A DNA stretch of 20,126 nucleotides from a virus. The notes under the pieces were generated by a model. The model did not search any database. It was given only the letters and a program-made list of their open reading frames with translations, and was not told where the DNA came from. Below are positions 1 to 17,518 of this stretch, piece by piece. A program made the translations under genes and the position numbers. The first letter of the stretch is position 1, and the number at the start of each line of letters is the position of its first letter. The stretch covers positions 1 through 20,126 of IMG/VR virus record IMGVR_UViG_3300032284_000053, one strand, 5' to 3'.

Positions 1-369
1 ATCATTGCCAAGAACGACATGCAGGGGCTGGGTAGTGCCTATACCTATGCGCGTCGTTACGGGTTGATGGCAATCATGGGCATTGCCCCTGAAGATGACG
101 ATGGTAATGCAGCGTCTGCAACCATTATCCCGCTTCCTGTAAAGAAGGCCGAGCCAAAGAAAGTGGAAGTTGCCCACGTTGAGGAGGCAAAATCCATACT
201 TTCGGAAGCCAAACAGATTTCAGACGCCAAAGAATTAGACTGGTTTCTGAAAAAGAATGCCCAGCGGATTGCAGATATACGCGAGGCTAGCACTGTAACG
301 CATGAATATCTGAAACAACGTATTGATGAACGTCGTCAAGAGATTAACAAGGAGATTAAAAATGCCTGA
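1..369 (+). CDS. ERF-family single-strand annealing protein, 5'-truncated by window edge
   Basis: The reading frame is open from base 1, so only the C-terminal 122 residues are present. ERF proteins are phage recombinases that anneal complementary single strands. The recognisable signature is at the very start: [19 protein letters not shown] followed by [16 protein letters not shown], the conserved ERF core with its typical 'EDDDGN' end. After it come a Pro/Lys/Glu-rich linker (about residues 42-58) and a charged helical tail (about 60-122), as is common in this family. The stop overlaps the next gene's start by 8 bases, so the two are probably translationally coupled. Its neighbours (SSB-tail protein, DUF968 nuclease-like protein) support a recombination/replication role. 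The Met at base 19 is internal to the core and is not the real start. Confidence 0.88.
349..354 (+). promoter_or_regulatory. Strong Shine-Dalgarno fixing the start of the SSB-tail gene
   Basis: AAGGAG lies 7 bases before the ATG at 362, inside the end of the ERF gene. It selects this ATG over the in-frame upstream ATG codons at 323 and 326, and indicates coupled translation across the 8-base overlap. Confidence 0.75.
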
Positions 370-1066: not shown

Positions 1067-1817
1067 TGTATCCACCATCACCAGCACTACCGCCGTCACC
1101 GCCACCAGAACCACCGCCTCCGCCCGCACTGGAAGAACCAGTAGCAGGGCTACCGCCAAGACCGCCGTAGTTTTCACCGCCATAATCACCAGCGCTGCCT
1201 GAATTGTTTATGTTATTGCCACCAGATGCAGTGCCGCCCGCTCCACCGGCTCCGGGGGTATAATTACCAGCAGCTTGTCCACCGGAACCATAACCGCCTG
1301 TCATGGTGGCACCAGAAATGGAGCTGGTAGTGGTGGAACTTGTACCGGTGTTTGAAGAGCCAGCAGAGCCGCCAGCGCCAACAGACCACGATATCGAGCC
1401 GCTTACGCCGGTTACGTTGATAATAGACTGGGCATACCCAGAGCCGCCGCCGCCGCCACCACCGCTATTATAGTCGTTGTAAGTGTTGCCATAGCCACCG
1501 CCACCAGAGCCGCCTATTACGCTTAGAACAAGTTGAACCGCACCGGATGGAACAGCTTCAGTCCCAGAGCCGCTGGTGTAAGTGTTGGTGAACGGAGTGA
1601 AAGCAGTCGCACCAAAGAAGTTATTGATGCTGATAGTGCCGCTGGTTGGTATGGCAACGGGACCGCCACCATTAGGATAACCTACGGTTCCGGTGGGTAC
1701 ATAAGCACCGCCAGCATAGTAGTCACCAAGCGCAACATTCAAGGGCGACCCTACTGGCCCAAACTCACCCTTTATCTGGCTCATGGAAAGAGAATTACCA
1801 TAAACGGGAAGTGTCAT
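1047..1817 (-). CDS. Glycine-rich phage tail adhesin (256 aa)
   Basis: The N-terminal module (residues 1-70) has the pattern MTLPVYGNSLSMSQIKGEF ... GTISINNFFGA seen at the head of many short phage tail/adhesin proteins. A small beta segment follows (72-102). The rest (101-248) is dominated by Gly, Ser, Asn and Thr, including GGGGGGGSGYAQ and AGGGGGSGGGDGG. The end GDGGYIIFAWT resembles the closing strand of glycine-rich adhesins. Such domains, like the polyglycine-rich adhesin of Salmonella phage S16, bind host surface receptors at fibre tips. The start ATG shares one base with the TAA of the upstream 575-aa fibre gene, so translation is coupled and the product may be the fibre's tip. Placement at the end of the structural operon fits a receptor-binding role. 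Receptor specificity cannot be read from sequence. Confidence 0.8.
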   Translation of the reverse strand: MTLPVYGNSLSMSQIKGEFGPVGSPLNVALGDYYAGGAYVPTGTVGYPNGGGPVAIPTSGTISINNFFGATAFTPFTNTYTSGSGTEAVPSGAVQLVLSVIGGSGGGGYGNTYNDYNSGGGGGGGSGYAQSIINVTGVSGSISWSVGAGGSAGSSNTGTSSTTTSSISGATMTGGYGSGGQAAGNYTPGAGGAGGTASGGNNINNSGSAGDYGGENYGGLGGSPATGSSSAGGGGGSGGGDGGSAGDGGYIIFAWT

Positions 1818-3544
1818 TATCCATTGACCTTTGCGCTAAGGGCATTGATCAAAATCTGCTGTTCCTTAATAGCTTCGACCAGCAGGGGTACGAGACGCGC
1901 GTAGTCTAGCGTCAGGTACTGCGGATCAATAGGCGCAGGGGCAATAACTTCGGGCATGACAGCCTGAACATCCTGAGCAGACAGACCGACTTCGCGGACG
2001 GGTTCGTAACCAAGCGCCTGAGCAGTCTCGTTGGCCTCGTAGTAAAAGCCCTTAAGAGACATGACCTTAGCCAGCGCACCGCTGATGTAACCCAGACGGG
2101 TCTTCAGGCGATCATCCGAATAGTAGGCTGTAATGTTGCCTGTAGCCGTAATGGTTGTGGCCGTAACGGAGCCGCCGTTCAGATTAGTGGCAGTTGTAGC
2201 CGTCGCAGAGTTTCCAGAGCAGGCAGCAGACGTACCAGAATTGGTAGCATACGAAACAGACTGACTACCGATGTTGCTCGACGTAATAAACGTGCCGCCA
2301 CCGGCAGGGTTAGAAGCCGTCGCAGCATTGCCCGTGCAGCTCGCAGACGAACCAGTGACGTTAATACCCCAAGTACCAGAAGCACCGGAACCGCCACGCG
2401 AGGGGACATCAAGCGCAGACTGCGCTGATCCCTGTGATGTCCCACCCGTACCGCCGTTAGCTATAGGAAGTGTGCCGCTGACTTGAGAAGTCAGGCTGAC
2501 GCCAGACAAGGTTCCACCCAGTGTTATAGTGCCGGTAGAGGTAATCGTTCCACCCGTCAGGGTAATGCCGTTTACACTTCCAGCGGTTGCGACCGAAGTG
2601 ACCGTGCCGCCAAGTCCCGTAGCGGAAATTGTAATACCACCAGAGGAATTTGTAATAGTAACGCCGCTACCTTGCGTTAGCGTAGCGCGGGTAAAGCCCG
2701 AGCCATTGCCAATATCAAGCTGACCATTAGTCGGGGTTGCGGTCAGGCCCGTGCCGCCGTTGGCAACATTCAAGGTGCCAGCAAGCGAAACAACGCCAGA
2801 GGTGGCACTAGAGGGGGTAAAGCCGGTGCTTCCCGCGCTAAAGCTGGTGACGCCAGCCGCAATTCCGGTCCAGCTTAGGGTTGCCGAGCCATTGGTAGAC
2901 AGGAACTGGCCTGAAGCGCCGTCCGCTGCCGGGAGGATGTAGGTAGTGCTGCCAGCCGCCGCAGCCGGTGCTAGGCCAACGTAGCCGCTCGTGGAGCCAG
3001 ATAGCCGCAGGGTACCCTTAACGTCCAGCTTGGAGCCGGGTGAGGGGGTGCCAATACCCACATTGGTGCCGTCGTGAACGAAATTAGTCGTTCCAGTCAA
3101 AACACCGCCAGAATTGTACTGAACAGCAGTCGTCGAACCAGCCGCATAAGTGTTCGCAACTGCAACATTAGTGCCATCACAGACCACGATAACACTAGCC
3201 GTCTGCGCGATCACAACGGATGTGCCGCCGCCTGCTGAGGAAAATGTCACAGAAAAGGGACCGGTCGTATTGTTATAGAATGTCCAAGTGCCACCCGTAC
3301 CTGACGGCAACTGATAATTTACGCTGGCAGTCAGTACCCCAGTAACCACAATGAGAGGCGGGCGATACTGGGAGATAGAAAGACCGACAGTCCCAGATAC
3401 TGATGTAGCATTCAGGAGCGTCGCACCGCCAAAGGCAGTATCAATGTCGTCCATGTCCGCATTGACGGGAGTGTTCCAGTCATCGACGTAGCTGTTGTAT
3501 GCGGGCTTTTCGAGCAGCTTGTTGGTTGTGAATGAAGAGGGCAT
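1817..3544 (-). CDS. Tail fibre with C-terminal S74 self-cleaving chaperone (575 aa)
   Basis: The N-terminus (MPSSFTTNKLLEKPAYNSYV) is of the type that starts phage fibres with a virion-attachment region. The middle is a low-complexity Ser/Thr/Gly shaft with two ANGGTG motifs (residues 261-266, 362-367) and phrases such as NGQLDIGNGSGF, common in trimeric fibres. The last 100 residues form a peptidase S74 intramolecular chaperone: SDDRLK (Ser476, Lys481), then GLSAQDVQAVMPE (45-57 of the domain) and LTLDYARLVPLLVEAIKEQQ, a helix used in trimerisation. By family knowledge, the domain folds the trimer and is then released by cleavage just before the Ser. The mature fibre would then be about 475 residues. 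It sits 2 bases downstream of the 772-aa gene and overlaps the adhesin gene by 1 base. Confidence 0.9.
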   Translation of the reverse strand: MPSSFTTNKLLEKPAYNSYVDDWNTPVNADMDDIDTAFGGATLLNATSVSGTVGLSISQYRPPLIVVTGVLTASVNYQLPSGTGGTWTFYNNTTGPFSVTFSSAGGGTSVVIAQTASVIVVCDGTNVAVANTYAAGSTTAVQYNSGGVLTGTTNFVHDGTNVGIGTPSPGSKLDVKGTLRLSGSTSGYVGLAPAAAAGSTTYILPAADGASGQFLSTNGSATLSWTGIAAGVTSFSAGSTGFTPSSATSGVVSLAGTLNVANGGTGLTATPTNGQLDIGNGSGFTRATLTQGSGVTITNSSGGITISATGLGGTVTSVATAGSVNGITLTGGTITSTGTITLGGTLSGVSLTSQVSGTLPIANGGTGGTSQGSAQSALDVPSRGGSGASGTWGINVTGSSASCTGNAATASNPAGGGTFITSSNIGSQSVSYATNSGTSAACSGNSATATTATNLNGGSVTATTITATGNITAYYSDDRLKTRLGYISGALAKVMSLKGFYYEANETAQALGYEPVREVGLSAQDVQAVMPEVIAPAPIDPQYLTLDYARLVPLLVEAIKEQQILINALSAKVNG

Positions 3545-3546
3545 GG

Positions 3547-5865
3547 TTAAATAGCCTCGTTAGCTATGGATAACGCCTTAGTGACGGCTTCATCCGGCAC
3601 AGCAAGCAATGATTCCGTGGAATTGTTTAGGGCCTTCTTAGTCTTGTCAGCAAGACGGATCAGGTTCTCGGCCTCAGACCTATGGTTCATGATACGACCC
3701 CCGGAAGCGCGACCTATGCGGCCTCCAGTAGCAGCCCGCTTATCGCCTTCAAAGTTTGCCATCGCTTTAGACAAGGCGTCCAAAACATTTGGATCGGACA
3801 TATTCAGATGATCATGAATGCCGATGCCAAGGCGCTTTGCGACTTCTGATTTATAATGTTCCGTACTTTCCGGCGTATTTTCCGAAGCATTGGACGGACT
3901 CCATTTGTTTATAATTGCATCAATGGTATCCCTTCCCTCCGATCCATAACTAGAAAGTAAGGTTTTGTGGGCCGAATAGCCGTTTTCTGGTTTATCAAAA
4001 ACCGCAAATTTGCCGTCAGAGCCGACGTATCCCGGCTGTCTTTTGGCAAACTCGCTGTCCATAATATTACCGGGATTGTTATTTCTGACGTTCTTTGGAA
4101 GAGACTGGTTATCCTGCGGGGCATTAGAAGGCCCTCCGGTCATGTCTCCCGAAGGCTGTTGTTCCTGCTCTTGAATAGCACGTTGCCCATAATAGGCCCC
4201 GGAAGTTACGGGTTGAGACGTAGCTGCTGCACCTAATTTTCCAGCGCGGCCTAACATGTATTGAGACCTACCGGCAATCTTGGGGGACCCCATAGCCAAT
4301 GATCCAACAGCCGCTGCCGGATGAATAAGGGGCCACAGACCAAGGCTGGCTATAGCTTCCACTGCACCACTTGTACCGCCTCTAAAAGCATCTTTTGCTG
4401 CATATCCAGCCAGAATATAAGGAAGGTCCGGGTCATAAATTGCAAGCCGCTTTAGCACATCGGTTTTTGCGTCAGTTTTTAAAGACTTGAGCGCCCTAGC
4501 AAGTACTTTTGCATCGCCAACTTTTGCCCCAGCGCCCAACTCGCCTTTAAACTCTTTAATGGCGGTAAGACCAGTTTGGTATGCATCCATTATGTCAGCA
4601 TATTTAGGGTCTATATCAACAATGGACTTTTTTACGGAAGCGGCAATTGCATCAATTGCACTCCTAGGAGCGCCAGATGGCACAGAATTTCTCAGATCAT
4701 ACAAAGACCGTTTCAATGTATCTTGATCTAGTATTGTAGGGTTACCGCCCTGTGCGGCTTGGACAATTTTTTCAGCTTCGTCAATGGCATCATGCGTTGT
4801 TTTAAACCCAGCATTAGCGCCACTGCTATATTTTACGTTATTTCTTTGAGCGGCTATCTCATTGTTAATGCCGGAATAGTCAGGAGTGGCATTTACTAGA
4901 TTAGATTTGCCGGAAAGATATTCTGCACTATTTGCTCTGCGAGCAGCATCAGCGGCAGTATCAAGTCTGTCAGCAATCTTGCTTGCATCATAATTGCCAG
5001 AAAGTGCTGCTTTGTAACCAGCCCTTTGCGAGGCAGTTCCAGTTGCCCCTACTTCATGAGCCATTTTAAGAGCGTTATAATCAACACCAGAGAGACCGGA
5101 TTGCGTCCCACGAAGAACAGTAACTGGAACTTTAGCAACTTTCCCAGCAACGCTTAATGCCGCCTGTATTGGATCAATTTTTGATACCAGACTTAACGCT
5201 CTGCCCGCCGTTGTTTCCGGCGCTAGTGTTCCAAGAGACCCTACTGTTGCAGCGTCCATAATTAGACCGAAGGGATCGCTATTAAGAGCCTGCTTAAATC
5301 CTTTGGTAGAACCATATACATTTTTGTAATGATCTAGCAGGGCATTAAATGAACCTTCAGTATCAGCTTTTTGCTTTTCATCTTGTTTTACGCCTAACCA
5401 ACCAGCAGTTTTTGAAAGTGCGCCTTGCCCCAATCTACCAAGGGATGTTGCAGTATCTATGGGATGCGCCAAGGCGGAAACTATGGTTCCGACACCCTGA
5501 CCAGTGCTAGGCAAAAGAGATTTCCCGGCACCTTCAAACGCCTGTGACCAAGAGAGTTCCGGCGCAGGAGTGCCTGCCGTATGGAACAATTTTGGCGTTG
5601 TTTTTATTGGCGTTGTTTTTGATTGAACGATTGGTCTGGAAATAGAAGCGCGTGACGACGGTGCGCCGCCAAATGTAGACCTACTTTCCGGCGTCATATT
5701 GCCCATAAGAGCAGTGACATCAGAATCTTCGCCCGCTGCTGGTTCTTTGCCAGACGGCGCGGCTGCTTGAGTGCCACTACCAAACCGTGAGGCACTATCA
5801 GGCTGCATTTGTGAGATCAGTCCTTGAATGTCCTGATCTGAATTGGGCGACTGTTCGTTATCCAT
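3547..5865 (-). CDS. Large virion protein with RNNNPGNI-type domain (probable internal/ejection protein, 772 aa)
   Basis: The N-terminus carries two copies of a 22-residue unit (10-31, 47-68). A long helical, Ala/Lys/Asp-rich region (about 105-560) follows, with small hydrophobic stretches. Near the C-terminus is a domain from KNVRNNNPGNI (591-601) through DGKFAVFDKPENGYSAH and DTIDAIINKWSP to DPNVLDALSKAM (about 592-702). Domains with this signature occur in phage structural proteins and are usually thought to be lysozyme-like peptidoglycan cutters, so local wall digestion during DNA entry is an inference. A GGRIGRASGGRI motif (714-725) and a helical tail with LLAVPDEAVTKALSIANEAI follow. 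GGR-type motifs also occur in the neighbouring 1722-aa protein. AGGAAAAACA before the ATG supports the start. Its position between the 1722-aa protein and the fibre fits an ejection protein. Confidence 0.78.
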   Translation of the reverse strand: MDNEQSPNSDQDIQGLISQMQPDSASRFGSGTQAAAPSGKEPAAGEDSDVTALMGNMTPESRSTFGGAPSSRASISRPIVQSKTTPIKTTPKLFHTAGTPAPELSWSQAFEGAGKSLLPSTGQGVGTIVSALAHPIDTATSLGRLGQGALSKTAGWLGVKQDEKQKADTEGSFNALLDHYKNVYGSTKGFKQALNSDPFGLIMDAATVGSLGTLAPETTAGRALSLVSKIDPIQAALSVAGKVAKVPVTVLRGTQSGLSGVDYNALKMAHEVGATGTASQRAGYKAALSGNYDASKIADRLDTAADAARRANSAEYLSGKSNLVNATPDYSGINNEIAAQRNNVKYSSGANAGFKTTHDAIDEAEKIVQAAQGGNPTILDQDTLKRSLYDLRNSVPSGAPRSAIDAIAASVKKSIVDIDPKYADIMDAYQTGLTAIKEFKGELGAGAKVGDAKVLARALKSLKTDAKTDVLKRLAIYDPDLPYILAGYAAKDAFRGGTSGAVEAIASLGLWPLIHPAAAVGSLAMGSPKIAGRSQYMLGRAGKLGAAATSQPVTSGAYYGQRAIQEQEQQPSGDMTGGPSNAPQDNQSLPKNVRNNNPGNIMDSEFAKRQPGYVGSDGKFAVFDKPENGYSAHKTLLSSYGSEGRDTIDAIINKWSPSNASENTPESTEHYKSEVAKRLGIGIHDHLNMSDPNVLDALSKAMANFEGDKRAATGGRIGRASGGRIMNHRSEAENLIRLADKTKKALNNSTESLLAVPDEAVTKALSIANEAI
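5662..5838 (-). repeat. Two 22-residue repeats at the N-terminus of the 772-aa protein
   Basis: Residues 10-31 (DQDIQGLISQMQPDSASRFG..) and 47-68 (DSDVTALMGNMTPESRSTFG..) align without gaps as D-x-D-I/V-x-x-L-x-x-x-M-x-P-x-S-x-x-x-F-G. They look like two short linear or helical docking motifs separated by an Ala/Pro/Glu linker. Confidence 0.75.
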
Positions 5866-5873
5866 TGTTTTTC

Positions 5874-8800
5874 CTATTGATTAGTAACGTATCTGGAAAA
5901 ACCCGGAAACTTGAATAGTTTGTCTATAGTTTCTGGTTTTGTTTTGCCAGAATATACCCAATAGAAAAGACTGTTTCCGTCATTCATAGTTGTATTCAAC
6001 ATCTGAATAATGTTTTCTTTGGCTTTGCCATATTCTTGATCGGGATGTTCTTTGCGAAATGCTGCGTCAGCATTTTGGGCAAGATACATATTGGACATTC
6101 CGGGATGAGCCTCGGCAACATCGGATTTATATTCATTTAGATAGTTAAACCTATCCAATGCACGTTGCTTATCTATGTACTGCCCAGCAAGAATTTTTGC
6201 AGCTTGGTCTTTTGTAAGTGACGAGTTAGGAACCATAGAGGCAACTTCATCAAGCGCACCAAGTGAATTTTGGTTGGCCCCCTTTGTAGTTGCGATTCTT
6301 AAAAACCCGGTCAATTTATCAGACGCAGCTTTCCATCCCAAAGCATCGTTTTGCTCTGGTGTGGTTACAAGATACTGGGTCGGGTCCATATGAAGTGTAG
6401 ATGCAACTGTTTTAATTACGTCGTTTGCTTTGTTTAAGAGGCCCGCCTTAAAATCAAACAAAGGACCACCAGAAAGGGCCTCATTTGCAGGTAGTTTTAA
6501 CAGGGCCTCTGTAAGCTGATTTAGCGTTCCGCCTTGATTATAAGCTGAGGTTGCATCTTGGATTGTATTTGCTTCAACAGCCTTTGATATTTCCATTTGC
6601 GGAGCGCGTTGATCATCCGAAAGCGGCATTAGAGCAGCGAAGTCACGGTCAGCCTGCGCCCTGCCAATACCACCAACGAATTTAGGAACCTCTCCATGTG
6701 GCATCGGCATGTTTTCTAATGACTTGGTAGCCATAGTATTGCTCTGATCCGGCGTAGCCGACTGACCCGGCATGGAAGACTGACCCCACTCAGGGTGTCC
6801 AGAGATGATGTTTGGCAGTTCCGCCGAACCGGCAAGTGTTGGCCGTTTATTTGCCGGAAGAGCAAGATATTCGCCAACAAGCATACGGCTTCCATCAGGC
6901 ATGATAGCCCAATCTCGCCCGCCAATGGTCGCAAATCCAATTCCCTGCATTGCCTTACCAGCAACTGCCCGCGCCTCGGATATTCTTGCCCGATTCATCT
7001 GGGTGGATTGTAATGCGCCTGCACCTGCGCCAATGCCTTCAGCAAGAGCGCCAAGACCATAGCGGTTTGAAGAACTTGCCATAGCGCCGATACCCTGAAG
7101 GAACGGAATAACAGCGTCCTCGTCTCCACTGGCAAGTCTATCGAGATACCCACCCTTGGGAGCAAGAGTGTTACCGGCTCTTTCAAGGAAACCGGGCTTT
7201 GGTGGCGTTGGCGGCTGGGGTGCTTGCGGCTGTGCCAAATCTTGACGGATGTTAGGAGCGCCAAGTCCGGTACGGGCAAGAAGAGCGCCTTCAGCCGCAT
7301 GCGTATCTACCGGAGCCTGTGCAGAAGAAATCGCATTACTACCGCCAAGACCCGGAGCCATACCTGCACCAGTTTCTTCGCTGCGAATTGGAGGAAGCGC
7401 AGAAACATTTATAGGGGCGGGCAGCGGCGGTGCAATACCCGGCGCGGCAGGACGCGCCACGTTTGGACGGGGAGTGACTGGGTTGGCGGGTGTAGTCCTA
7501 CCTGCAAGCTTTGCTTCAGCAGCAGGATCAGAACCCATACGATACGCTTTTAAAGGTGCAGTAGAAGCCGATGGCTGTAACCCCGGAGCCACAGGAGGAT
7601 TAGTGCCGGACGGAGAAAGGCCCGTCGCTGCATACACAGCCGCCCTATGTGCGGCTGCGTCTGTATCATATTGAGAAATGACTTTCCTGTTTGCCTCGCT
7701 TTCATTTGGACTCATGAAATATGCAACAGGAGAAGTTGTTTTAAGATGATGATAAAAATTTGCAAATTGATCAAGCATTGGCATTTCTGCGTCTTTCGCA
7801 GTGTCGGTCTGAGCCATGCCTAGAAACTTATTACCGGCTTCTCTGTATTGGCGACGTTGGTTGTCAGATATGTTTGGATTTGGTGCAGTAGATACTCCAT
7901 ATAACTGCTCTCCAAGACTGCGATAGCCAGCCGGATTTCTTTGATTTTCTGGAATTTCTGAATTGTAAAGCGGAATATGTGGCAAATTTGCAGACGAATC
8001 TTCATCCAGAGGACCGCCACCATCCTTGCCAATGCGACCACCACGGTTCATCAGCGCCGCTAACGCAGCGATGCTTCCAACATCCTTTGCAAAATGCAGG
8101 CCCTGACTAAAGCCGCTTTCTGGCGCATCAGGTGCGGCACCCGGCTTTGCAAGCTCTTTTTTATCAATGCTTTCGGCGGAATCTGGCATATAAGGATTGC
8201 TGCCTGCGTCATAAGGCGTTCCAGAGCCAATATCTTTTTCAGCCTTTCCGCCTGCGGCTTTCTTTTTGCTAGAAGGGCTCATGGAGGATGCAAGGTCTGC
8301 AATACTAGCAGCGTCATCCATCATCTCAGTAAACCCAGATTTTGGAACTGGCGGGGGATCGCCAGCAACCATAAGATCAGGGGTGTCAGAATGAGAAAGC
8401 GGAATACCATAGGGACCTGAAGAAGCGCCACCAGAGGCGTAATGGCCTACGAGACCGCCACGATAAAGTGAAATTGGGTCGTTATTATTTTTATCAGGAG
8501 ATTTTGAATCTTTTGTAGTTTCAGATTCAGCCGCAGGTTCATCTTTTTTGAACCAGCTTTTAATTTCCTTAACTCCGGCTTTGCCAGACTTATATGCCTC
8601 TCCAAGACCACCAGAAGCCTCAAGCATCCCCTTTAACTGAGACTCCGGCAGTTTAGGAGCGTCACCAGCAACAGTTAGATTACCAACTGGAAGCGTTCCA
8701 GCGGGGACGAAACCGGGAGCGCCCGGAGAACCACCAAGACCGGGAATACCCTGATTGCCATACATGCCAAACTGAGCTTGAAGAATAGCAGCCATTTCAT

Positions 8801-11042
8801 CATTGCCAATTAACTGAGCCGGATTTCCGCCTTCAGCAAAACCGCGCCGCATCGGGAACGGAAGAACAGCGCCACCTTCCGACTCCGGCGCGAGGCCACC
8901 ACGAGCATAATGACCCTTAGAGGCAGCATCCTTAGTCGCAGCGTCGTAATCGACGGTCTTGTAGCCACCGGCCAAACCAACGGCATCGGGATGATGCTTT
9001 TCAACGTCCTGTGCGATAAGACCAATGCGTGTTCCCGGTTCGTTCTTGTAGCGGAACTTAACGATCTTTTGACCGTCAAAGGTCTTACCAATTGGCTCGA
9101 CGGCCTCCTTGAGGCGTTCGTCCGAGAAGAACGGCATAGGCTGGGTAGTCTGGGTGGTCGAACCCGACAGCGCACCAGTACCCATGGCAATGTTCGCCAA
9201 GAACTGGGCCTGCTGATACGGGAAGCCCTGCTGCTGGAGGAACTGGTTGTAAAGCGCGGTCTGACCGGCCTGCTGGGTCTGCTGCGCCACAGTACCCGCT
9301 CCAAGCTGGGCCTGACCCGCCGCAAGAGCGTTCTGCTGGGCCTGCGTACCCATACCGGCAAGAGCCTGAGACGTTCCCGCCCCCATGCCGTATAGGCCCT
9401 GACCGAGGCCAGCCATCGTGCCCGCAGCACCTGCGCCCATGCCATACTGCTGTTGGGCCAGAGCGGCCTGCTGGGCCGTCTGAGCAGCTCCCTGACCAAA
9501 TTGCTGCTGACCCAACTGGGCGAGGTTTTGACCTGTACCAGATTGCTGAGCGTAATTTTGCTGGCCGAGACCCTGCATGAAGCCGCCCATGCCGGTTCCC
9601 ATACCGTACAGGCCCTGACCCAGACCCTGCTGGGCCGACGCTGCGCCCATACCCTGAGAGTATTGCTGCTGGCCCAAAGCGGCCTGCTGCTGGGCAGTCT
9701 GCGCCCCCTGACCGAATAGCTGCGAACCAAGCGCGGCCTGAGCCTGCCCGGTTCCAAGCTGCTGCCCGTACTGCTGCTGGCCGATACCAGCCATAGCCTG
9801 TCCGGCACCAAGCCCCTGTCCGTAAATCTGCTGGCCGAGACCCTGTTGCGCCTGAGCCGCGCCCATGCCCTGCGAATAGCCCTGCTGGCCGATGCCAAGC
9901 ATCTGATTGGCACCCTGCTGGAGAGCGGCACGATTAGCCTGAGCGGCACCCAAGCCAAGCTGCTGCTGCTGTTGGGCGGCACCGAGGGCCTGCCCGTAGC
10001 CTTGGTTCATGAGGCCGGAAACCGTCTGGCCGGTAGCCAAGTCCTGCTGACGAGCCAAATTGGCTTGCGCGATACGACCGCGATCACCGCCAAACGCACC
10101 CTGAGAGACTTGATTACCCAGAAGGCTGGACTGCTCCTGATCCTGCTGTTGGCGCAGGTTAGCCATAGTCGAACCGACCACGCTGTTCAGGTACGGGGAC
10201 ATATACTGATTGATCTGATCCCCACCCAGCGGACCTGCATTAACGGCCTGAGTACCGGCAGCAGCGAGGCCAGTCGCCATACCTTGATATGGCTGTGCGC
10301 CAGCCTGTGCCTGATTAATTCCCCGTGCCGCAGCGGCGTTAAACGGCTGAGAACCAGCTAGACCACCCATGATTCCGGCAGTTGCGGCTTGATTATAAGG
10401 TTGCGCGGCAGAAGCGGCAGAATTGATATTCTCTGCGGCGTTACTTTGAAGGGGCTGGGCCGCTTGCCCCGCCTGCTGAAGGCTATTCAACGCAGCGCCG
10501 CCCAAGGCACCACCAACATCCTGCGCCCCAGTGACGTTCTGAGCCGCCTGTCCGTAATACGGTGTGGCGGCAGACAAGCCAGCTTGGGCGTACTGATCAG
10601 CAGCTTGATTATACGGCTGCGCTGATTGTAAAGCGCCCTGATACTGAGCGAGAGCGCCGCCCTGTAGATCCTGAGCGGCCTGAGCGCCTTGCTGCATAGG
10701 TTGATACGCAGCCTGAGTGCCTGTGACACCGGCATTCAGACCACCCAAAAGCTGTTGAGTAGCCTCGCCATAATAGGGGGTTGCCGCAGCCTGACCGCCC
10801 ATAAGCTGCTGGGTAGCGCCTTGGAAATATGGCTGCGCTACACCGCCAGCAGCGGAGATGGCGTTTATGCCTGACTGTTGCGTCTGATTTATAGGGGCAA
10901 CAAACGCATTTGGATCAGTGCTGTATTGCTGGAAAGGCGTAGCCGCAACTTCCGTCGCACGGGCGTTAACAGCGCGGTAATTTTGCATTACCTCGGGAGG
11001 AATTTGTACTTGTTGCGTCGTCTGGGCTGAACCACCGCACAT
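5874..11042 (-). CDS. Composite internal-virion/tail protein with 18-residue repeats and embedded S74 motif (1722 aa)
   Basis: The start MCGGSAQTTQQVQIPPE is typical of a family of large phage virion proteins. Order: repeat array A (70-267); a conserved segment with YMSPYLNSVVGS and QGAFGGDRGR (280-340); repeat array B (388-567); an S74-like segment starting SDERLK (Ser640-Lys645), with GLIAQDVEKHHPDAVG, to about 703; then a long Gly/Pro/Ala-rich, probably disordered stretch with recurring HYARGGL, YRGGLVGHYASGG and MNRGGRIG motifs; then a helical C-terminus (about 1470-1722) after GAMASSSNRYGLGALAEGIG. The S74 segment lacks the usual C-terminal trimerisation helix and lies mid-protein. AGGA lies 8 bases before the ATG, and one base separates it from the GNAT gene stop. 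Size and position match T7-type ejection proteins, but it appears to fuse several modules. The function is inferred. Confidence 0.8.
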   Translation of the reverse strand: MCGGSAQTTQQVQIPPEVMQNYRAVNARATEVAATPFQQYSTDPNAFVAPINQTQQSGINAISAAGGVAQPYFQGATQQLMGGQAAATPYYGEATQQLLGGLNAGVTGTQAAYQPMQQGAQAAQDLQGGALAQYQGALQSAQPYNQAADQYAQAGLSAATPYYGQAAQNVTGAQDVGGALGGAALNSLQQAGQAAQPLQSNAAENINSAASAAQPYNQAATAGIMGGLAGSQPFNAAAARGINQAQAGAQPYQGMATGLAAAGTQAVNAGPLGGDQINQYMSPYLNSVVGSTMANLRQQQDQEQSSLLGNQVSQGAFGGDRGRIAQANLARQQDLATGQTVSGLMNQGYGQALGAAQQQQQLGLGAAQANRAALQQGANQMLGIGQQGYSQGMGAAQAQQGLGQQIYGQGLGAGQAMAGIGQQQYGQQLGTGQAQAALGSQLFGQGAQTAQQQAALGQQQYSQGMGAASAQQGLGQGLYGMGTGMGGFMQGLGQQNYAQQSGTGQNLAQLGQQQFGQGAAQTAQQAALAQQQYGMGAGAAGTMAGLGQGLYGMGAGTSQALAGMGTQAQQNALAAGQAQLGAGTVAQQTQQAGQTALYNQFLQQQGFPYQQAQFLANIAMGTGALSGSTTQTTQPMPFFSDERLKEAVEPIGKTFDGQKIVKFRYKNEPGTRIGLIAQDVEKHHPDAVGLAGGYKTVDYDAATKDAASKGHYARGGLAPESEGGAVLPFPMRRGFAEGGNPAQLIGNDEMAAILQAQFGMYGNQGIPGLGGSPGAPGFVPAGTLPVGNLTVAGDAPKLPESQLKGMLEASGGLGEAYKSGKAGVKEIKSWFKKDEPAAESETTKDSKSPDKNNNDPISLYRGGLVGHYASGGASSGPYGIPLSHSDTPDLMVAGDPPPVPKSGFTEMMDDAASIADLASSMSPSSKKKAAGGKAEKDIGSGTPYDAGSNPYMPDSAESIDKKELAKPGAAPDAPESGFSQGLHFAKDVGSIAALAALMNRGGRIGKDGGGPLDEDSSANLPHIPLYNSEIPENQRNPAGYRSLGEQLYGVSTAPNPNISDNQRRQYREAGNKFLGMAQTDTAKDAEMPMLDQFANFYHHLKTTSPVAYFMSPNESEANRKVISQYDTDAAAHRAAVYAATGLSPSGTNPPVAPGLQPSASTAPLKAYRMGSDPAAEAKLAGRTTPANPVTPRPNVARPAAPGIAPPLPAPINVSALPPIRSEETGAGMAPGLGGSNAISSAQAPVDTHAAEGALLARTGLGAPNIRQDLAQPQAPQPPTPPKPGFLERAGNTLAPKGGYLDRLASGDEDAVIPFLQGIGAMASSSNRYGLGALAEGIGAGAGALQSTQMNRARISEARAVAGKAMQGIGFATIGGRDWAIMPDGSRMLVGEYLALPANKRPTLAGSAELPNIISGHPEWGQSSMPGQSATPDQSNTMATKSLENMPMPHGEVPKFVGGIGRAQADRDFAALMPLSDDQRAPQMEISKAVEANTIQDATSAYNQGGTLNQLTEALLKLPANEALSGGPLFDFKAGLLNKANDVIKTVASTLHMDPTQYLVTTPEQNDALGWKAASDKLTGFLRIATTKGANQNSLGALDEVASMVPNSSLTKDQAAKILAGQYIDKQRALDRFNYLNEYKSDVAEAHPGMSNMYLAQNADAAFRKEHPDQEYGKAKENIIQMLNTTMNDGNSLFYWVYSGKTKPETIDKLFKFPGFSRYVTNQ
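9342..9881 (-). repeat. Array B: ten perfect-register 18-residue (54-bp) Gln/Gly/Ala units
   Basis: Residues 388-567 of the 1722-aa protein. An aromatic residue (Tyr or Phe) occurs at 389, 407, 425, 443, 461, 479, 497, 515, 533 and 551, exactly 18 apart with no indel. A hydrophobic residue (mostly Leu) recurs 13 residues after it. Typical units are QYGQQLGTGQAQAALGSQ and QYSQGMGAASAQQGLGQG. Copies differ at most other positions, so the register is kept while the sequence drifts. Confidence 0.9.
10242..10835 (-). repeat. Array A: eleven in-register 18-residue (54-bp) units with QPY motif
   Basis: Residues 70-267 of the 1722-aa protein. The Pro of the (Q/T)-P-(Y/F/L) motif falls at 71, 89, 143, 161, 197, 215, 233 and 251, all spaced by multiples of exactly 18. 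Degenerate units at 107, 125 (AAQDLQ) and 179 keep the phase. One extra QP at 115 is out of register. Typical units are QPYFQGATQQLMGGQAAA and QPYNQAATAGIMGGLAGS. Confidence 0.85.
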
Positions 11043-11043
11043 A

Positions 11044-11535
11044 CTAGTGTTCCTGTCTCGTCAGATGTTCTTTTTTCATGTTGTAAACAAAGAATGCGCC
11101 CCGCTGCTCACCAAAGGCGCGTTCGTACAGTCGGATTTTAGGTGCTATTTTGGTGGTGCTTTGGATGCCGACAATTAGCGGCAGACCCATGTCATCCGAG
11201 AATTTCTTGGAGAAATCACACAACTTGCGGGCCAGTCCGAGACGGCCACTGCGATACTTGGGATGCACGAAAATTCCGCGCTCCTCTACAACATCATCAT
11301 CAGAATACCACGGCTTACCAATGCGGAGTAGAACGCCTGCCTGAATTGTCTCACCGGGCTTCCCAATAATTCCAAAAATTCCTCGATCTAAAGACAAGGC
11401 AGAATAGACTTCCCGAAGTACCTTTTCTGGGCAGGTATTTGAGAACCCCATTTCCTCATAAGTATTAGAAAGCTGGCTCATGATGTCATGAACATCAGCA
11501 ACCGTACCAATTCTGATCTCGGTTTGCTCTTGCAT
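11044..11535 (-). CDS. GNAT-fold N-acetyltransferase-like protein (163 aa)
   Basis: Length and pattern fit the GNAT fold: an N-terminal strand-helix (EIRIGTVADVHDIMSQLS), the central strand VVEERGIFVHPKYRSGRLG (83-100) leading into the helix LARKLCDFSKKFSDDMG, then PLIVGIQST and a C-terminal RLYERAFGEQRGAFFVYN segment. GNAT enzymes bind acetyl-CoA through a Q/R-x-x-G-x-G/A loop. Here the loop reads RSGRLG, so the usual fourth-position Gly is Arg. Enzymatic activity is therefore uncertain, although similar degenerate loops occur in GNAT-like proteins found in phage structural clusters. AAGGCGG upstream supports the ATG at 11535. It lies between the 204-aa and 1722-aa virion genes, so a virion-associated role, or modification of a virion or host protein, is possible. 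The substrate is unknown. Confidence 0.75.
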   Translation of the reverse strand: MQEQTEIRIGTVADVHDIMSQLSNTYEEMGFSNTCPEKVLREVYSALSLDRGIFGIIGKPGETIQAGVLLRIGKPWYSDDDVVEERGIFVHPKYRSGRLGLARKLCDFSKKFSDDMGLPLIVGIQSTTKIAPKIRLYERAFGEQRGAFFVYNMKKEHLTRQEH

Positions 11536-11543
11536 GTTCCGCC

Positions 11544-12158
11544 TTAGTTCTTCTTGGGGCCGGGAAGGTTCTTTAGGGTCTTTATGGTACGCGCCCGAAA
11601 TCCCTCCACAAAGTGGTCTAGAATTTTGTGGCCGTCATCCATTGACCCCTTGCCAATTCTTACCACATCTTGTGGGTCAATAACATATTCTCCCCCGGCG
11701 GCTACAATTGGTACGGAATCCACCCCCCCTCCCTCGGCTTTACCCGGAGATGGAACTCCGTAAGGAAGACCGCCGCCCGTGTAGGGGAGGCCAGCACCGG
11801 CTTTGGGAGACCCATAGAACGGTTGAGAGAATATATTCTTGGCTACTCGGAACCCAGACATGGTGTTTCCCTCCCCCATCGCAGAAATGATGTCCGCAGG
11901 GATGACGTAGGACCCCGATTTGACATGCATGTTCAAGTGATCGGTTCTACCGGAAACGGAACTATGGATGGGTCCAACATGGATTTTTCCCATTTTGGGC
12001 TTTTTGATGTGCATCTTCGGCATGCCGCCACGCGCATTATTTTCGCGGGCAATGTTTAGCGCAGCAGCTACAGACTGATCCTGCGGGTGACCGGCATGAA
12101 CCATCTCGCTGATATTCGTACTAATTGTCTTCTGGGACTTCCCGTGCTTCAGGGGCAT
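11544..12158 (-). CDS. Conserved phage protein with duplicated YVI motif (204 aa), function unknown
   Basis: The N-terminus (MPLKHGKSQKTISTNISEMV, then AGHPQDQSVAAALNIAREN) is a recurrent head of small phage proteins and looks like a basic helix-turn-helix-sized segment with no assigned role. A Lys/His-rich linker (46-62) leads to GPIHSSVSGRTDHLNMHV and then the first motif copy, SGSYVIPADIISAMGEG (81-97). A Gly/Pro/Tyr-rich stretch (115-145) separates it from a second copy, GGEYVIDPQDVVRIGKG (155-171), after VPIVAA. The Lys/Arg-rich tail ends LPGPKKN. Similar GEYVI elements occur in phage tape-measure and virion proteins. A GAGGA Shine-Dalgarno overlapping the previous stop supports translation of the next gene start here. 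Probably a minor virion or assembly protein, by context only. Confidence 0.72.
   Translation of the reverse strand: MPLKHGKSQKTISTNISEMVHAGHPQDQSVAAALNIARENNARGGMPKMHIKKPKMGKIHVGPIHSSVSGRTDHLNMHVKSGSYVIPADIISAMGEGNTMSGFRVAKNIFSQPFYGSPKAGAGLPYTGGGLPYGVPSPGKAEGGGVDSVPIVAAGGEYVIDPQDVVRIGKGSMDDGHKILDHFVEGFRARTIKTLKNLPGPKKN
11607..11921 (-). repeat. Duplicated YVIP/YVID motif within the 204-aa protein
   Basis: Residues 80-112 and 152-184 share the pattern (S/A)-G-(S/G)-x-(Y)-V-I-x-x-x-(D)-(I/V)-(I/V)-x-x-(M/I)-G-x-G-(N/S)-x-(M). One gap is needed near the D-P-Q-D segment. This suggests an internal duplication of a small beta-helix unit. Confidence 0.6.
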
Positions 12159-12512: not shown

Positions 12513-14300
12513 CTATATGTTCCCGGTAACGCTCTTATTGCTGCCAGAGCCGCCATCATAAATACCGCCATTCACATTGTTATGAGTGCCGGTGGTAAGA
12601 TTACCTTGAATAATATAGTAATCGGAAGTTCCACCGGACACATATATTCCATATGATTGATTGGTAGACGTTTCTGGCGCTAAGACGGCAACGGAATTGG
12701 TTGTAAGCGTAAATTCTTTAACATTCGCTCCAACAGTAATTCCGTTGTAACCAGCTAGAGAATTGACGCTGTTATTGCATACGAAACAGTCTGATATTTT
12801 AGCAGCAAGCCCGCCGTCTAACAGAACGCCGTGCTGACCGTTTCCAAAGATTCTGGTTCCTTGAATGGTAATCTCGCTCGTCCAAGAGCCGCCTACACTC
12901 ACGCCGTTACCAACAAGGGTCGATCCAATATACGAACCATCAGCATGAAACCCGCGCCCTGCGTCCAAAGATACGCCAGCGGCGTAACAATGGTCCGTTT
13001 CAAGGTCAAAGAAGAACGCCCAACTAGGGTACGTCCCACTACCGTTATGAACCATCTTAAATCCGGTGTAGCCATTAAGGAGGACAATCCCAACGCCCGT
13101 AAGGCTGTTGGCATTACTGTCCATCAATATCCAGTTTAAATTGGTTGAGCATACAGCCTGAACATAGGCAGAGCCGTTTGCTACGGGCGTGTAATACCAA
13201 TTGGTTGTAGTGGGCGCAGCCGGTGCGGAACCACCAGAAGTACCCCCCGTTGTGACTTGCCATACCCAGTTGTTAGCCGTGAAAAGCTGCCCAGCAGCGT
13301 AAGAATGCGACGCTTGGAACGAAGTCCAAGCATTACTATCAGGAGAAGAGTACGGGTATGGATTGTCGCAAACCAAATCTTTAACGAAGAGGCCGTGTGA
13401 CTCACCGGAGTTACCCAGAAATCCAATGCCTTGGGTTCCGGTCATATACCGCATGGTTACGTTTTCAATGGAGCCACGGGTCGTGCTGTTTATGCCGATA
13501 CCGTTGTAACCCCATTCTATGAACACAGAGTAAATGACAGGCTCAAACCCACCCGTAACGTATATTTCATATCCGCTAGTTCTAAAGACATTTGGCATAA
13601 ATGCCATTTCACGGATGCTCGCAAACTGAGCGTTTGCGCCAAGAGTCATCGTGTTGCCAGTGGCAGATGTCATTTGAATAACGGTAGACCGAGGGCCGTC
13701 CCCTCGAACCGTTACGCCTTCTCTTGTTATGCTACTTAGCCCCGTGACGTTATACGTCCCAGTTGGGAAGTAGACTGTCTGACCTGTGCTATTGGCTACC
13801 GCGATTGCAGAATTAATGGCGGCAGTATCATTTGTTGAACCATCTCCTGTAGCCCCATATGATTTGACGTTTAGCCAAAGCGTCCCGCTTGACCCCGTAG
13901 GCCCCGTGGCCCCCATAGGGCCGGTTACAGACGCTCCTGTGGGTCCAGTTGGGCCAACATTTCCAGTAGGGCCAGTAGGGCCGGGAATAAACGAATTTCC
14001 GCCAGTAGGCCCGGTGGGTCCGCTGCCACTTGGACCAGTGGGGCCGGGGACGGCACTAGCATTCCCAGTCGGACCCGTGGGGCCAACGTTACCAGTTGGC
14101 CCTGTAGGACCACCGGGAGGACCCGTGGGGCCAACTACACCGGTTGGACCCGTGGGTCCCATGGCAGGTCCAGTCGGGCCTACATGACCAGTTGGACCTG
14201 TGGGACCATTAAGACCGCTGGGTCCTGTAGGCCCAATAGGGGACACCACCTGAAAATTGGCGTCTATGTACGGGTTACCAATTATGTATGGGACCGGCAT
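12513..14300 (-). CDS. Tailspike-like protein: collagen-like stalk plus pectate-lyase beta-helix (595 aa)
   Basis: Residues 1-20 may anchor to the virion. Residues 22-137 are a collagen-like region built from GPTGPTG blocks with short interruptions. From [18 protein letters not shown] (141-158), with [12 protein letters not shown] at 176-187, the protein has the hallmark start of the pectate-lyase-3 superfamily right-handed beta-helix, which continues to the C-terminus with repeating short strands. Residues 323-372 ([31 protein letters not shown]) look like an inserted small carbohydrate-binding-type module. The fold is typical of tailspikes that bind or cleave surface polysaccharide. Catalytic residues cannot be assigned from sequence alone. 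TAATG overlap with the nozzle-like gene couples translation, and GGAAG precedes the ATG. Confidence 0.85.
13890..14237 (-). repeat. Collagen-like Gly-Pro-Thr repeat stalk
   Basis: The encoded repeat is G-x-x, overwhelmingly GPT, in short blocks broken by 2-6 residue interruptions such as HV, VV, NV, NASAVP and GNSFIP. Pro is placed in the X position and Thr in the Y position, as in many bacterial and phage collagen-like proteins without hydroxyproline. Probably a trimeric stalk. Confidence 0.9.
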
Positions 14301-16345
14301 TAGAACTTCCCGTCAGGCTGTAGGCGGTAACGGATATTACCCAGACGCCAGAATGAATTGATGTCGCTGCTCGAAATGGCAATCGAAACCAACCTGCCAC
14401 GGAACCGGGGGGTGACATACTGCGTAGATTGGGTAACCGTGAACGGCCCAGACACCAGCGGTGTCTGCCCAGCGTAGTCCGTATAGTAGAACGTAATCTG
14501 GACGTTCGCGCTTTGAGTGCCGCCGTAATAGCCCCACTTCATGTCGGGCCAGACCTGATCAATAAAGGTCTTAACGTCGGCCTCGCTCAGGGCAAAGTAG
14601 CCAGTCTGGAAACTGGATAGCATTGGCTGGCCGTCAGCATTTTGCGAGGTCTCGTGCTGGTAAATGTACCGCTCCGGGCTGGCCCCGATAGGGTTACCAA
14701 GGACCGACTGATTGATCCACGCAGTACGGCCCAGCGTCCCGAAATCCCACTGTCCAAGACCCTTGTTATACTTAACATACTTTGCGACTTCACCATTGCT
14801 GCTAATAGTCGGGTAGTACCAAGCTATTTCGTTGAACAGAGAATTGGCAGCAAACCTAATCTTGTTAACATTGGTCAGATCAATGTCTTGGAAGATCACA
14901 TCCCAAACGGGGCAATAAATGGACTCAACGCCACTTCCAGCCAGCACATAGAACTGTGACGGCCCCATCCAATAAACAGAGCCGTTGAGCGTACCGGCTG
15001 CTTTTTGACCTATCAGGCCGCACCCAGTTCCGACTTCGTTGAAGCTATAAATGTATGGCTGGCCGATATACTGCATGGACCACAAGGCGGTGTCGGTCCA
15101 AATCAAGCCCTGCTGCGGACCCTGAATGCCACCTACGATGCGCGATCCGCGCGGAATGCGGTAAGAGCCAGCTTGATTGGTTACAGAGGCAATCCAAGCG
15201 TCATAATTTTCAACGTCGCACCAACGAACAAGAAGATGATCAATTATGCCGTTAAATGTAGAGCCATAAGCAATGACCTGCCTTTGCGGCATTGCTACAA
15301 AGCACCCAGTATTAGCTGTTGGCGCATTTGGTATGACTGTGGCAATCGTTGGGTTGACTAGCGGATTCCAGACATAGATTTCTTGCTCAAATGGATTAGC
15401 AATCAAAATGCTACCCCAATTGTCTAAAGACCAATCAGTAGCAGTTATAGCTGTTCCGGGATTAGCCGTAGGCGCTACGCCGCTGCCATATCCGCCCGCA
15501 CCATAGGGGCCAACGCCATAACCAGTACCTAAAGGAAGGGGGCCATCGCCAATAAACAATTGATAGCGGGCCAAGCCGCCATTCATGCTACCAGAGTCGT
15601 TTGCGTTAGCGGCGTTTGATGTTTGAATACTAAATGTGTTTGTAGAATTAACTTGTGTAATTAGGTAATTACCAAAAATGGTAATGCCAGCTACATTCGT
15701 TGAAACCAAGGCAGTAAAAGTATCTCCAACGACATAACCGTGATCTGCTAAAGTAACCAAAACAATAGATGAACCGTCTGTCGTATCGTAAACAGGAACA
15801 GCGCCGCCTGTAGTAACAGTAGCGGTGGCATAGGCCGGTTGCCCCAAAACATCAGTAGCGTAAATATTAAAGGAGTTAACGCCAATAGCCGAACATTGGT
15901 ACATTCCAAAAAGAACAAGACCGCCAACGCTAATTTGTGTTTGTATATAAACGCTGTCGTAGGAAGTAATATTGCTTCCAGTAATGTTGATAATTACTTC
16001 ATTGCTGCCAGAAACGGTGTCTACATTAACTCCAACATTATAAGTTTCAGTTCTTGGGGTGATGTTTCGTAAGATGTTTTCTGACAGCGTTTCGAGAAGA
16101 TCGACCGCCCCAATCGCCAGATATTTTTTGTCGTTCGCGTCAGCCCACGCCCATAGGCACCGAATGATGCTGCTGATGGGGTTGGCAAAATACTTAGTCC
16201 AGCCGCCCAACTTCTGAGGAAGTCCAATCCCCTGAGCGTCTGGCACAAAGCGGATAAGCTGCGACGTTGAAATCGCAGCCTCGTTCAGTGCCGGTGTCCG
16301 GTTCTGATTTACGCCCGGAATGAGTTTGAGAGAGGCATGTGGCAT
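14300..16345 (-). CDS. Probable tail nozzle / DNA-stabilisation protein (681 aa)
   Basis: The N-terminus [20 protein letters not shown] with [19 protein letters not shown] and GGWTKYF belongs to a widespread podovirus structural family comparable in size and place to T7 gp12/P22 gp10 nozzle proteins. That equivalence is inferred. Residues about 110-165 and 189-245 are two related beta domains. A Gly/Tyr loop ([17 protein letters not shown], 273-289) precedes [20 protein letters not shown], a family hallmark, and the remainder is strand-rich and propeller-like. It lies 3 bases after the adaptor gene and overlaps the spike gene start by one base, the expected order adaptor, nozzle, spike. GAGG upstream supports the ATG. 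The nozzle would close the portal channel and attach spikes. Confidence 0.75.
15611..16018 (-). repeat. Tandem duplicated beta domain inside the nozzle-like protein
   Basis: Copy 1 (residues about 110-165) has [11 protein letters not shown], then NSFNIYA. Copy 2 (about 189-245) has [21 protein letters not shown], then NTFSIQT. Both follow V-I ... Y-x-x-x-D/S ... V-(G/A)-G-(L/I)-x-(L/I)-F-G-x-Y ... N-x-F-x-I. The likely origin is duplication of an Ig-like or OB-like surface domain. Confidence 0.62.
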
Positions 16346-16348
16346 TTA

Positions 16349-17065
16349 TTAGCCTCTGGAGGGGGTAGCCACGGGGGACGGTGACTGTGACGACCAGCCG
16401 GACGCCTCAAACTTCTTCCGAGCCTCTTCAACAGCAGCGCCCTTCAGAAGGGCCTGATACTGACCTTCATAGCTTTGGGCCATAGCCGGATCATCGCTCT
16501 GGCGACCAAAGTTGCGCTGGTATGCGCTGACGTAAACCATGGACGCCATGATCATAACGTCAGGGAGATACAGGCTGATAAAGGTTGTTGGGGTGCTGAC
16601 CGAAAGGCTTGAGGGGCGAAAGGTCCCAACAATCTCAACGTAGTAGTTCTGGTCAGGATACGGGCCTACCAAAAACAAGTTGTCATTGAAGGGGACAAAA
16701 TACTGCGGGATGCCGGTATAGGTCGAAGCGCCGTAAACAGCGTCTAGGAACTCTTTAGTGGTCGGAAGACAGGGGACGCGCGTACCTGCGTTCGGATCGG
16801 CTGTCCCGGCTGGGGTGATAATGTTGATCTGCTCGGAAACGACGAATGTGCCTTCAGGCACTGTGATCGACCGGGTTCCAACTGTGCAAGCAAACCCAGT
16901 AAGCGCGGTCGATGTGAACAGGAAGTCCAGATCACGGCACATACGATTTTCGGCATATGTGATCATCTGCGGCAGGATTTCAACAAACGCCGGATCATTC
17001 TCCGCGACTACCGCCAAGGTGGCGATCTGTGTTACATACTGGGAATAGGTTAAACCTGTAGTCAT
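16349..17065 (-). CDS. Head-tail adaptor protein (238 aa)
   Basis: The sequence is helical at both ends with a beta centre. Its order is YSQYVTQIATLAVV, then MITYAENRMCRDLDFLF (a characteristic helix), a central PEGTFVVSEQINIITPAG, GPYPDQNYYVEIVGTFRPSS, and the C-terminal LYLPDVMIMASMVYVSAYQRNF followed by QSYEGQYQALLKGAAVEEARKKFEASGWSSQ (pieces quoted separately). These features and the length near 200-240 residues match podovirus adaptors equivalent to T7 gp11 (gp4-like), which bridge portal and nozzle. It lies 3 bases from the lysozyme stop and 3 bases before the nozzle gene. The adjacency to a nozzle-like gene strengthens the call. The disordered Ser/Pro C-terminal tail (about 224-238) is unremarkable. 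Confidence 0.78.
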   Translation of the reverse strand: MTTGLTYSQYVTQIATLAVVAENDPAFVEILPQMITYAENRMCRDLDFLFTSTALTGFACTVGTRSITVPEGTFVVSEQINIITPAGTADPNAGTRVPCLPTTKEFLDAVYGASTYTGIPQYFVPFNDNLFLVGPYPDQNYYVEIVGTFRPSSLSVSTPTTFISLYLPDVMIMASMVYVSAYQRNFGRQSDDPAMAQSYEGQYQALLKGAAVEEARKKFEASGWSSQSPSPVATPSRG

Positions 17066-17068
17066 ACG

Positions 17069-17518
17069 TCACCCAACCGGCAGAAGTGCCGCCTCTGCTT
17101 CGCGCCTAGCCACAAGTCCGGGCAGGATTTTACCCCCACCACGGACCCATTTTCTAAGCTGCTCCTGCGCCCCGTCCCAGTCCCCAGCATTAAGTTTTTC
17201 CCTCAAGGTACTGGTTTGCAGCCTGCCGACACCAAGGTTATAGCAGAAATCTACAATGGCGTTTAGTGCTTTCGGGTGTTGGACCAAATTTGGGCAGTAC
17301 CGGATAACCTTGGGCAAATACCGGTGCCGAAGTTCTGCCTCCATTAGGGCATGGGCGTCTTCTTTAGACATAGGCAAATCAGCCAAAGTGACGGCTCGAC
17401 CGTCAGCGTAATGGGTCGATCCATAACCAATCGTCGGTATTCCAGCGGGACAAAGATACGGTTTGTTCCTAAATCCAATGCGGAGGCGATCAAATATTTC
17501 TGAAGATGCCTCGCTCAT
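17069..17518 (-). CDS. GH24 (T4-type) lysozyme-like endolysin with altered active site (149 aa)
   Basis: Residues 15-33 (GFRNKPYLCPAGIPTIGYG) are the GH24 muramidase signature. ADGRAVTLADLPMSKEDA, VDFCYNLGVG, STLREKLNAGDW and RKWVRGGGKILPGLVARR complete a full-length domain of normal size. GH24 enzymes use Glu (8 residues) Asp/Cys (5 residues) Thr. Here the Thr (29) is present, the Asp position is Cys23 (a natural variant tolerated in the family), and the Glu position is Ile14 (R-I-G in place of xEG). This suggests loss of catalysis or a changed mechanism. No signal peptide or transmembrane anchor is seen, and no holin is recognised nearby. It begins with an ATGA overlap with the fusion-enzyme gene, with AAAGG just upstream. 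Peptidoglycan binding without cutting, or a virion role, is possible. Confidence 0.85.
   Translation of the reverse strand: MSEASSEIFDRLRIGFRNKPYLCPAGIPTIGYGSTHYADGRAVTLADLPMSKEDAHALMEAELRHRYLPKVIRYCPNLVQHPKALNAIVDFCYNLGVGRLQTSTLREKLNAGDWDGAQEQLRKWVRGGGKILPGLVARREAEAALLPVG

Follow-up and report, generated by a model that had tools for sequence, protein, structure and literature searches.

The two arrays of 18-residue repeats in one long virion protein of this phage are, very probably, the two antiparallel arms of a single long alpha-helical hairpin; we read them so because all but one of 146 relatives have arms of matching length. The protein, which stands at the T7 gp14 place of the structural operon, probably serves as an ejection (internal virion) protein, and we moderately favour a hairpin of stepwise variable length which is freed by an S74 domain and lies side by side with others, extending the tail nozzle for DNA. 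The window, by which we mean the entire 20,126-base IMG/VR virus fragment that was analysed, carries on its minus strand structural genes arranged in a podovirus-like operon, according to its gene calls and their PHROG and Pfam matches. Its relevant features are the following.

5874..11042, minus strand: repeat-bearing ORF of 1722 aa, consisting of base, hairpin, S74 auto-chaperone and variable C-terminal part
10851..11042, minus strand: N-terminal base, residues 1-64 (IPPEV...PFxxYSxDPNAFVAP), kept among relatives
10233..10850, minus strand: arm 1 shaft (array A), residues 65-270, on an 18-residue grid with [QT]P in 8 of 11 units
9951..10232, minus strand: hairpin tip region, residues 271-364, with conserved YMSPY ... 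GAFGGDR ... QANR (alignment A1)
10080..10100, minus strand: predicted hairpin turn GAFGGDR, residues 315-321, with the A1 invariants G51, A52, G54 and R57 and a turn in the AF2 model
9333..9950, minus strand: arm 2 shaft (array B), residues 365-570, with ten aromatics at 18-residue spacing, 25% Gly and 27% Gln
9192..9332, minus strand: C-terminal base of the hairpin, residues 571-617 (YNQFLQQQGFPYQQAQFL), conserved
8928..9125, minus strand: Peptidase_S74 / intramolecular chaperone, residues 640-705, with PF13884 and the SDERLK dyad
5877..8927, minus strand: C-terminal part, residues 706-1722, charged and Pro-rich
1817-3544, minus strand like the operon: fibre gene with its own S74
3547..5865, minus strand: 772-aa virion protein with a muramidase-like C-terminal half, at the T7 gp15/gp16 position
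11044..11535, minus strand: GNAT acetyltransferase-like gene (PF00583, phrog_1249), at the T7 gp13 place
11544-12158, minus strand: p204, a protein of 204 aa
12513-14300, minus strand: tail spike, a collagen-like GPTGPTG stalk fused to a pectate-lyase-like part
14300..16345, minus strand: tail nozzle-like protein, labelled from gene order (the L002 annotation is 'phage stabilization protein')
16349..17065, minus strand: tail adaptor-like protein, labelled from gene order

Positions 9342-10835, singled out by an earlier, sequence-only reading, encode residues 70-567 of the 1722-aa protein. That reading saw in array B an aromatic residue every 18 residues, ten times without an indel, and this is indeed the case (residues 389, 407, 425, 443, 461, 479, 497, 515, 533 and 551): none of 2000 shuffles of array B equals the run, the longest aromatic run in them on any grid being 4 against the 10 observed. 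For array A the 18-residue grid holds by lag-18 autocorrelation, while the Q-P-Y motif claimed for all 11 units does not: [QT]P occurs on the grid in eight (at 70, 88, 142, 160, 196, 214, 232 and 250) and an aromatic in seven, and the aromatic run of this array is by itself not significant (1118 of 2000 shuffles). The suggested check by autocorrelation at 54 bp, or 18 residues, gives an identity peak at lag 18, and then at 36 and 54, in both arrays; judged against shuffled controls, the lag-18 identity z is 9.3 in array B (residues 341-600) and 5.6 in array A (residues 55-265), the corresponding BLOSUM z being 10.6 and 8.0. At the DNA level Tandem Repeats Finder reports almost nothing in the window, and neighbouring repeat units are mostly 30-70% identical. 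Since the DNA of the units has mostly diverged, the periodicity is maintained at the protein level, by selection. Further, the arrays mirror each other about residue ~317.5, with 65-270 mirroring 365-570 and the ends falling at mirrored positions, a feature absent from the earlier reading. Eighteen residues make five helical turns, which had been thought to place the aromatic on one helix face, and in each arm an apolar stripe does bear the aromatic: arm 1 has a single stripe (Tyr, Ala, Leu/Ile), arm 2 has two (Leu; Tyr with Ala/Met). If residues are paired by the mirror i + j = 635, Gly-Leu/Ile-Gly of arm 2 stands opposite the aromatic of arm 1, both of one unit.

The case for a hairpin comes from 146 distinct relatives. 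Arm length was taken as the turn-to-base distance, from the tip to the conserved bases, with HMM anchors; no part of the family is better conserved than the tip between the arrays (YMSPY...GAFGGDR...QANR). Arm 1 spans 77-265 residues and arm 2 spans 97-295, the window protein having arms of 265 and 295, and the two lengths correlate with r=0.995. The excess of arm 2 over arm 1 is 20, 24, 30 or 33 residues, by subfamily, in 125 of the 146, and lies within 17-34 in 145. With phylogenetically independent contrasts, for which the tree was built from the conserved parts, r is 0.991 and the slope 0.984, and changes between sister pairs (arm 1/arm 2) are +108/+108, +90/+90, +78/+78, +36/+36, +25/+25 and +18/+18. 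A permutation test on 34 unique pairs, taken from an earlier version of the arm-length table, returned a minimum standard deviation of 34 in 100,000 permutations, against 4.6 observed. As controls, neither the distance from the C-anchor to S74 (r=-0.26) nor the length after the hairpin (r=0.32) tracks arm length. Simple parsimony yields 50 length changes for arm 2 and 57 for arm 1, figures that we do not take as numbers of events, since few columns underlie the tree.

The comparison of copy number among relatives, which had been proposed together with the repeats, shows strict unit lengths rather than irregular ones: the steps in arm length are mainly multiples of 18 residues, with some of 11 or 7. 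Insertions usually lie at similar distances from the tip in arm 1 and arm 2 (66/66, 72/73, 81/84, 71/80); in the pair L052/L044 the distances are unequal, 61 and 86. In one clade (L032, L017, L024, L019) the flanks are nearly identical while arm length goes from 82 to 100, 136 and 208 residues, both arms gaining equally, and L019 carries five near-identical 18-mers in either arm, copies that are recent at the DNA level. Between L017 and L019 both arms differ by 108 residues, while the nozzle-like protein is 98% identical over 672 aa and the GNAT protein 97%; hence those parts do not dictate the length of the hairpin. The earlier notion of a structural ruler is thereby weakened in part: with 98% identical nozzles beside arms of 100 and of 208 residues, this part of the particle does not determine the length. 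One relative of the 146, L216 (1868-4297), is alone in having unpaired arms, its arm 2 carrying one 18-mer more (MGQQLAALGQQGYTTGAN); the unpaired unit may be either an intermediate that occurs in nature or an assembly fault.

Two independent rods are ruled out by the matching arm lengths, so that from the long rod or bundle suggested before we keep the helical arms and replace the two separate rods with one antiparallel hairpin. AlphaFold predicts helix in both arms rather than pure disorder. For window residues 1-708 the turn is at 314-320, at low confidence (mean pLDDT 48.9); for a short relative, L040, with a deeper alignment, confidence is modest (pLDDT 70.5, ~85-91 in the base, in a model that came without a distance-error map), with helices at 103-133 and 139-179 and the turn, 134-138, at the motif equivalent to GAFGGDR. 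The hairpin would thus turn at GAFGGDR, with the conserved segments IPPEV/AFV and YNQFLQQQGFPYQ forming its base; it would be ~40 nm long if fully helical, and each added 18-residue unit (five turns) would be answered by one in the other arm, with the register kept. The uncharged Gly/Ala/Gln-rich shafts would suit tight helix packing. Structure searches were also made. VIA-align places chemoreceptor and SMC hairpins on top, and also lists RipA and F-BAR, at Z about 7-8; we do not accept these as specific relatives, the Z being within the range that the tool calls a common arrangement. Foldseek against the PDB gave no match below E 0.37, and a PDB sequence search with profile A4 returned only RecA, a designed three-helix bundle and COMMD10, which were set aside as low-complexity or weak.

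Behind the hairpin lies the S74 domain, which matches PF13884 with 36.2 bits (cutoff 22) and has a Ser640-x4-Lys645 dyad (S640 DERL K645) that is conserved in at least 90% of alignment A4. The equivalent dyad in endoNF is S911/K916, and S74 domains are trimeric and cleave solely as trimers (PMC8326128). By analogy, this domain probably trimerises and frees the hairpin from the C-terminal part; the trimer would cut before Ser640, leaving residues 1-639 as the hairpin. The motif is present in about four in five relatives and absent in 32 of 146, some of which are truncated. The C-terminal part, in which a Pfam search found no match, contains 19% charged residues against 2.9% in arm 1 and 0.5% in arm 2, and it differs in kind from relative to relative. 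Judged by eye, the modules after S74 look swapped: lytic transglycosylase or lysozyme-like in L002 and L013, DUF4214-like in L015, L018 and L022, with a second S74-like motif in L013, L017 and L032.

The repeat had not been recognised as a named family, a view that holds only in part. Over the hairpin, short relatives give matches to PHROG_4287, 'DNA ejection protein' (L061 at 2.7e-15, L099 at 1.2e-10), L040 reaching 0.016, and aromatic 11/18-residue repeats are on record for tape measure proteins (PMC5099701). The whole window protein matches PHROG_4287 at 0.0059 over 525-701, and residues 1-667 alone, without the S74 part, give no match to it; the window is tied to this family through relatives with 56-94% identity in aligned parts. 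Protein 27 of Sinorhizobium phage phiM5, which matches PHROG_4287 at 6.5e-91, is annotated for that phage as 'detected in phage particle proteome'. It carries the tip motif as YMNPY...GAFGGSR, and genes for internal virion proteins and an exolysin come after its own.

Gene order agrees with T7. Each of the 89 loci that include 6 kb upstream has the order adaptor, nozzle, p204, GNAT and hairpin, with p204 directly preceding the GNAT gene; apart from p204, whose sole PHROG match is short and of unknown function, this order corresponds to gp11-gp12-gp13-gp14 of T7, where gp13-like genes are annotated as acetyltransferases too. The 'adaptor' and 'nozzle' labels come from weak PHROG matches together with this order. 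A homologue of the 772-aa protein lies downstream of the hairpin gene in 59 of the 89 loci, and the window operon, in which two small genes stand between the spike and the GNAT gene, also includes a glycine-rich fibre gene. Elsewhere in the window, next to a lysozyme-like gene, a 736-aa fusion (17515-19725, minus strand) unites methyltransferase, DXD sugar-binding glycosyltransferase and family 2 glycosyltransferase parts, and may take part in a glycan modification of the virion or the host. A host scan returned six MAG contigs, assigned to Chloroflexi, Proteobacteria, Methylococcales and Paceibacterota, which are probably binned phage.

Once T7 has ejected its DNA, six gp14 copies prolong the nozzle, each made of two antiparallel helices that a short loop connects (PMC11784390). 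Because of this hairpin precedent, PHROG_4287 and the T7-like order, we infer a protein that does the work of gp14 by means of a longer, step-variable hairpin. A number of such hairpins, lying next to each other, would form or line a nozzle extension for DNA passage across the envelope, resembling the six gp14 hairpins, and the extension would be as long as the arms allow. The conduit wall imagined in the sequence-only reading is accordingly possible by analogy with T7 gp14 (PMC11784390). What speaks against the ejection reading is that S74 domains are typical of tail fibres, together with the relatives that show no S74 motif, the unpaired unit of L216, the modest or low model confidence, the lack of a sequence relation to gp14 and the missing PHROG_4287 match of the window hairpin by itself. 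On the ejection-channel function as such our opinion is evenly divided. The further idea of a length-tunable trans-envelope channel, in which paired 18-residue units fit the reach to different envelopes with the rest of the tail unchanged, is tentative, and we would sooner bet against it.

The same free variation of length at a constant nozzle would also suit an outward rod. Three hairpins and an S74 trimer could make a six-helix tail needle or plug that closes the nozzle, like P22 gp26, the arms setting needle length; the gene lies just past that of the nozzle, and the trimeric state of S74 domains, which are cut only as trimers (PMC8326128), fits as well. We nevertheless consider a needle unlikely: PHROG_4287 and the phiM5 neighbourhood indicate ejection or internal proteins, the S74 motif is missing in about a fifth of relatives, and near-uncharged, Gly-rich shafts would be unlike a solvent-exposed rod. 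An internal position in turn recalls the mature T7 virion, where gp14 bridges the portal and gp15 (PMC11784390), so that the hairpin might sit in the head around the portal as a spacer or assembly part, a clamp that is ejected and lines no channel. A rod of 12-40 nm would fit a phage head, but a more than two-fold change in length with nearby tail genes little altered is hard to reconcile with a fixed socket there, and we regard this, too, as improbable. That the protein is the all-alpha shaft of a tail fibre or spike, with S74 in its usual role of fibre-assembly chaperone, seems more doubtful to us; S74 is indeed a fibre and spike chaperone domain, and GenBank relatives are named 'tail fiber domain-containing' or 'putative tailspike protein', but these names derive from the S74 domain itself, the window has separate fibre (with its own S74) and spike genes, S74 is here internal with ~1000 residues after it, and a GNAT gene precedes the hairpin gene as gp13 precedes gp14 in T7. 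Replication slippage producing two unrelated low-complexity Q/G/A arrays with no common structure deserves hardly any credit, since, despite the low complexity and the recent tandem copies of L019, it is already contradicted by arms that match across the relatives and through the tree, by mirrored insertions, and by an amino-acid periodicity kept by selection in mostly diverged DNA.

Returning to a hairpin within an ejection protein, the literature searched, with incomplete coverage, contains no description of matched arms in such a phage protein. Aromatic 11/18-residue repeats in tape measure proteins, paired change of arm length in chemoreceptors and periodic SMC arms are already known. For the question of how long a channel a short-tailed phage builds across the envelope, the family offers a natural series of near-identical proteins whose hairpins differ only by paired 18-residue units (arms of 77-265 residues), which makes hairpin length against channel length or host envelope directly testable. 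Matched arms are also evidence for a fold from sequence only where AlphaFold is weak, an approach that should serve for other virion proteins of low complexity too.

Among known systems, T7 gp14 (phrog_805, a PHROG distinct from PHROG_4287) occupies the same operon place, after the nozzle and a GNAT/DUF2833 gene, but has 196 aa, a hairpin of ~119 residues and neither S74 nor repeats, and is 23% charged against 0.5-2.9% in the window shafts; hhalign detects no homology of A5 to gp14 or to the six-sequence alignment A6 (E 0.66 and 0.91). The most conserved segment of gp14 relatives, GESxLEGNSMDR (T7 residues 86-98), lies at its hairpin turn. A likeness of this segment to GNxIxxGAFGGDR (window 309-321) is visual, and we rejected it as homology, profile comparison giving it no support. 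Tape measure proteins of siphophages (TP901-1; Belcaid et al.) have aromatic 11/18-residue repeats and a length set by repeat copy number (PMC5099701, PMC3271669). The window protein likewise has aromatics on an 18-residue grid, but in two mirrored, length-matched arrays around a turn, and its phage, unlike those siphophages, has a short-tail nozzle module of T7/P22 type; no tail-tube protein is among the PHROG and Pfam matches of the window, an absence limited by its being a fragment. Chemoreceptor cytoplasmic hairpins, which vary symmetrically from 12 to 32 paired heptads (PMC6628036), and SMC/Rad50 arms, SMC arm lengths being periodic (PMC5344682), share antiparallel intramolecular helical arms and paired change of length with our protein. 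They are built of heptads and serve cell functions, whereas here the steps are mainly of 18 residues (3.6 per turn) in uncharged Gly/Ala/Gln shafts, and we claim no homology to either. A further known system is PHROG_4287 itself, with hairpin and S74 and including phiM5 protein 27, a family that the short relatives match over the entire hairpin; 18-residue arrays of the window's length were not noted there, and the window protein differs from it by arms up to 3.4 times the shortest and by ~1000 more residues after S74.
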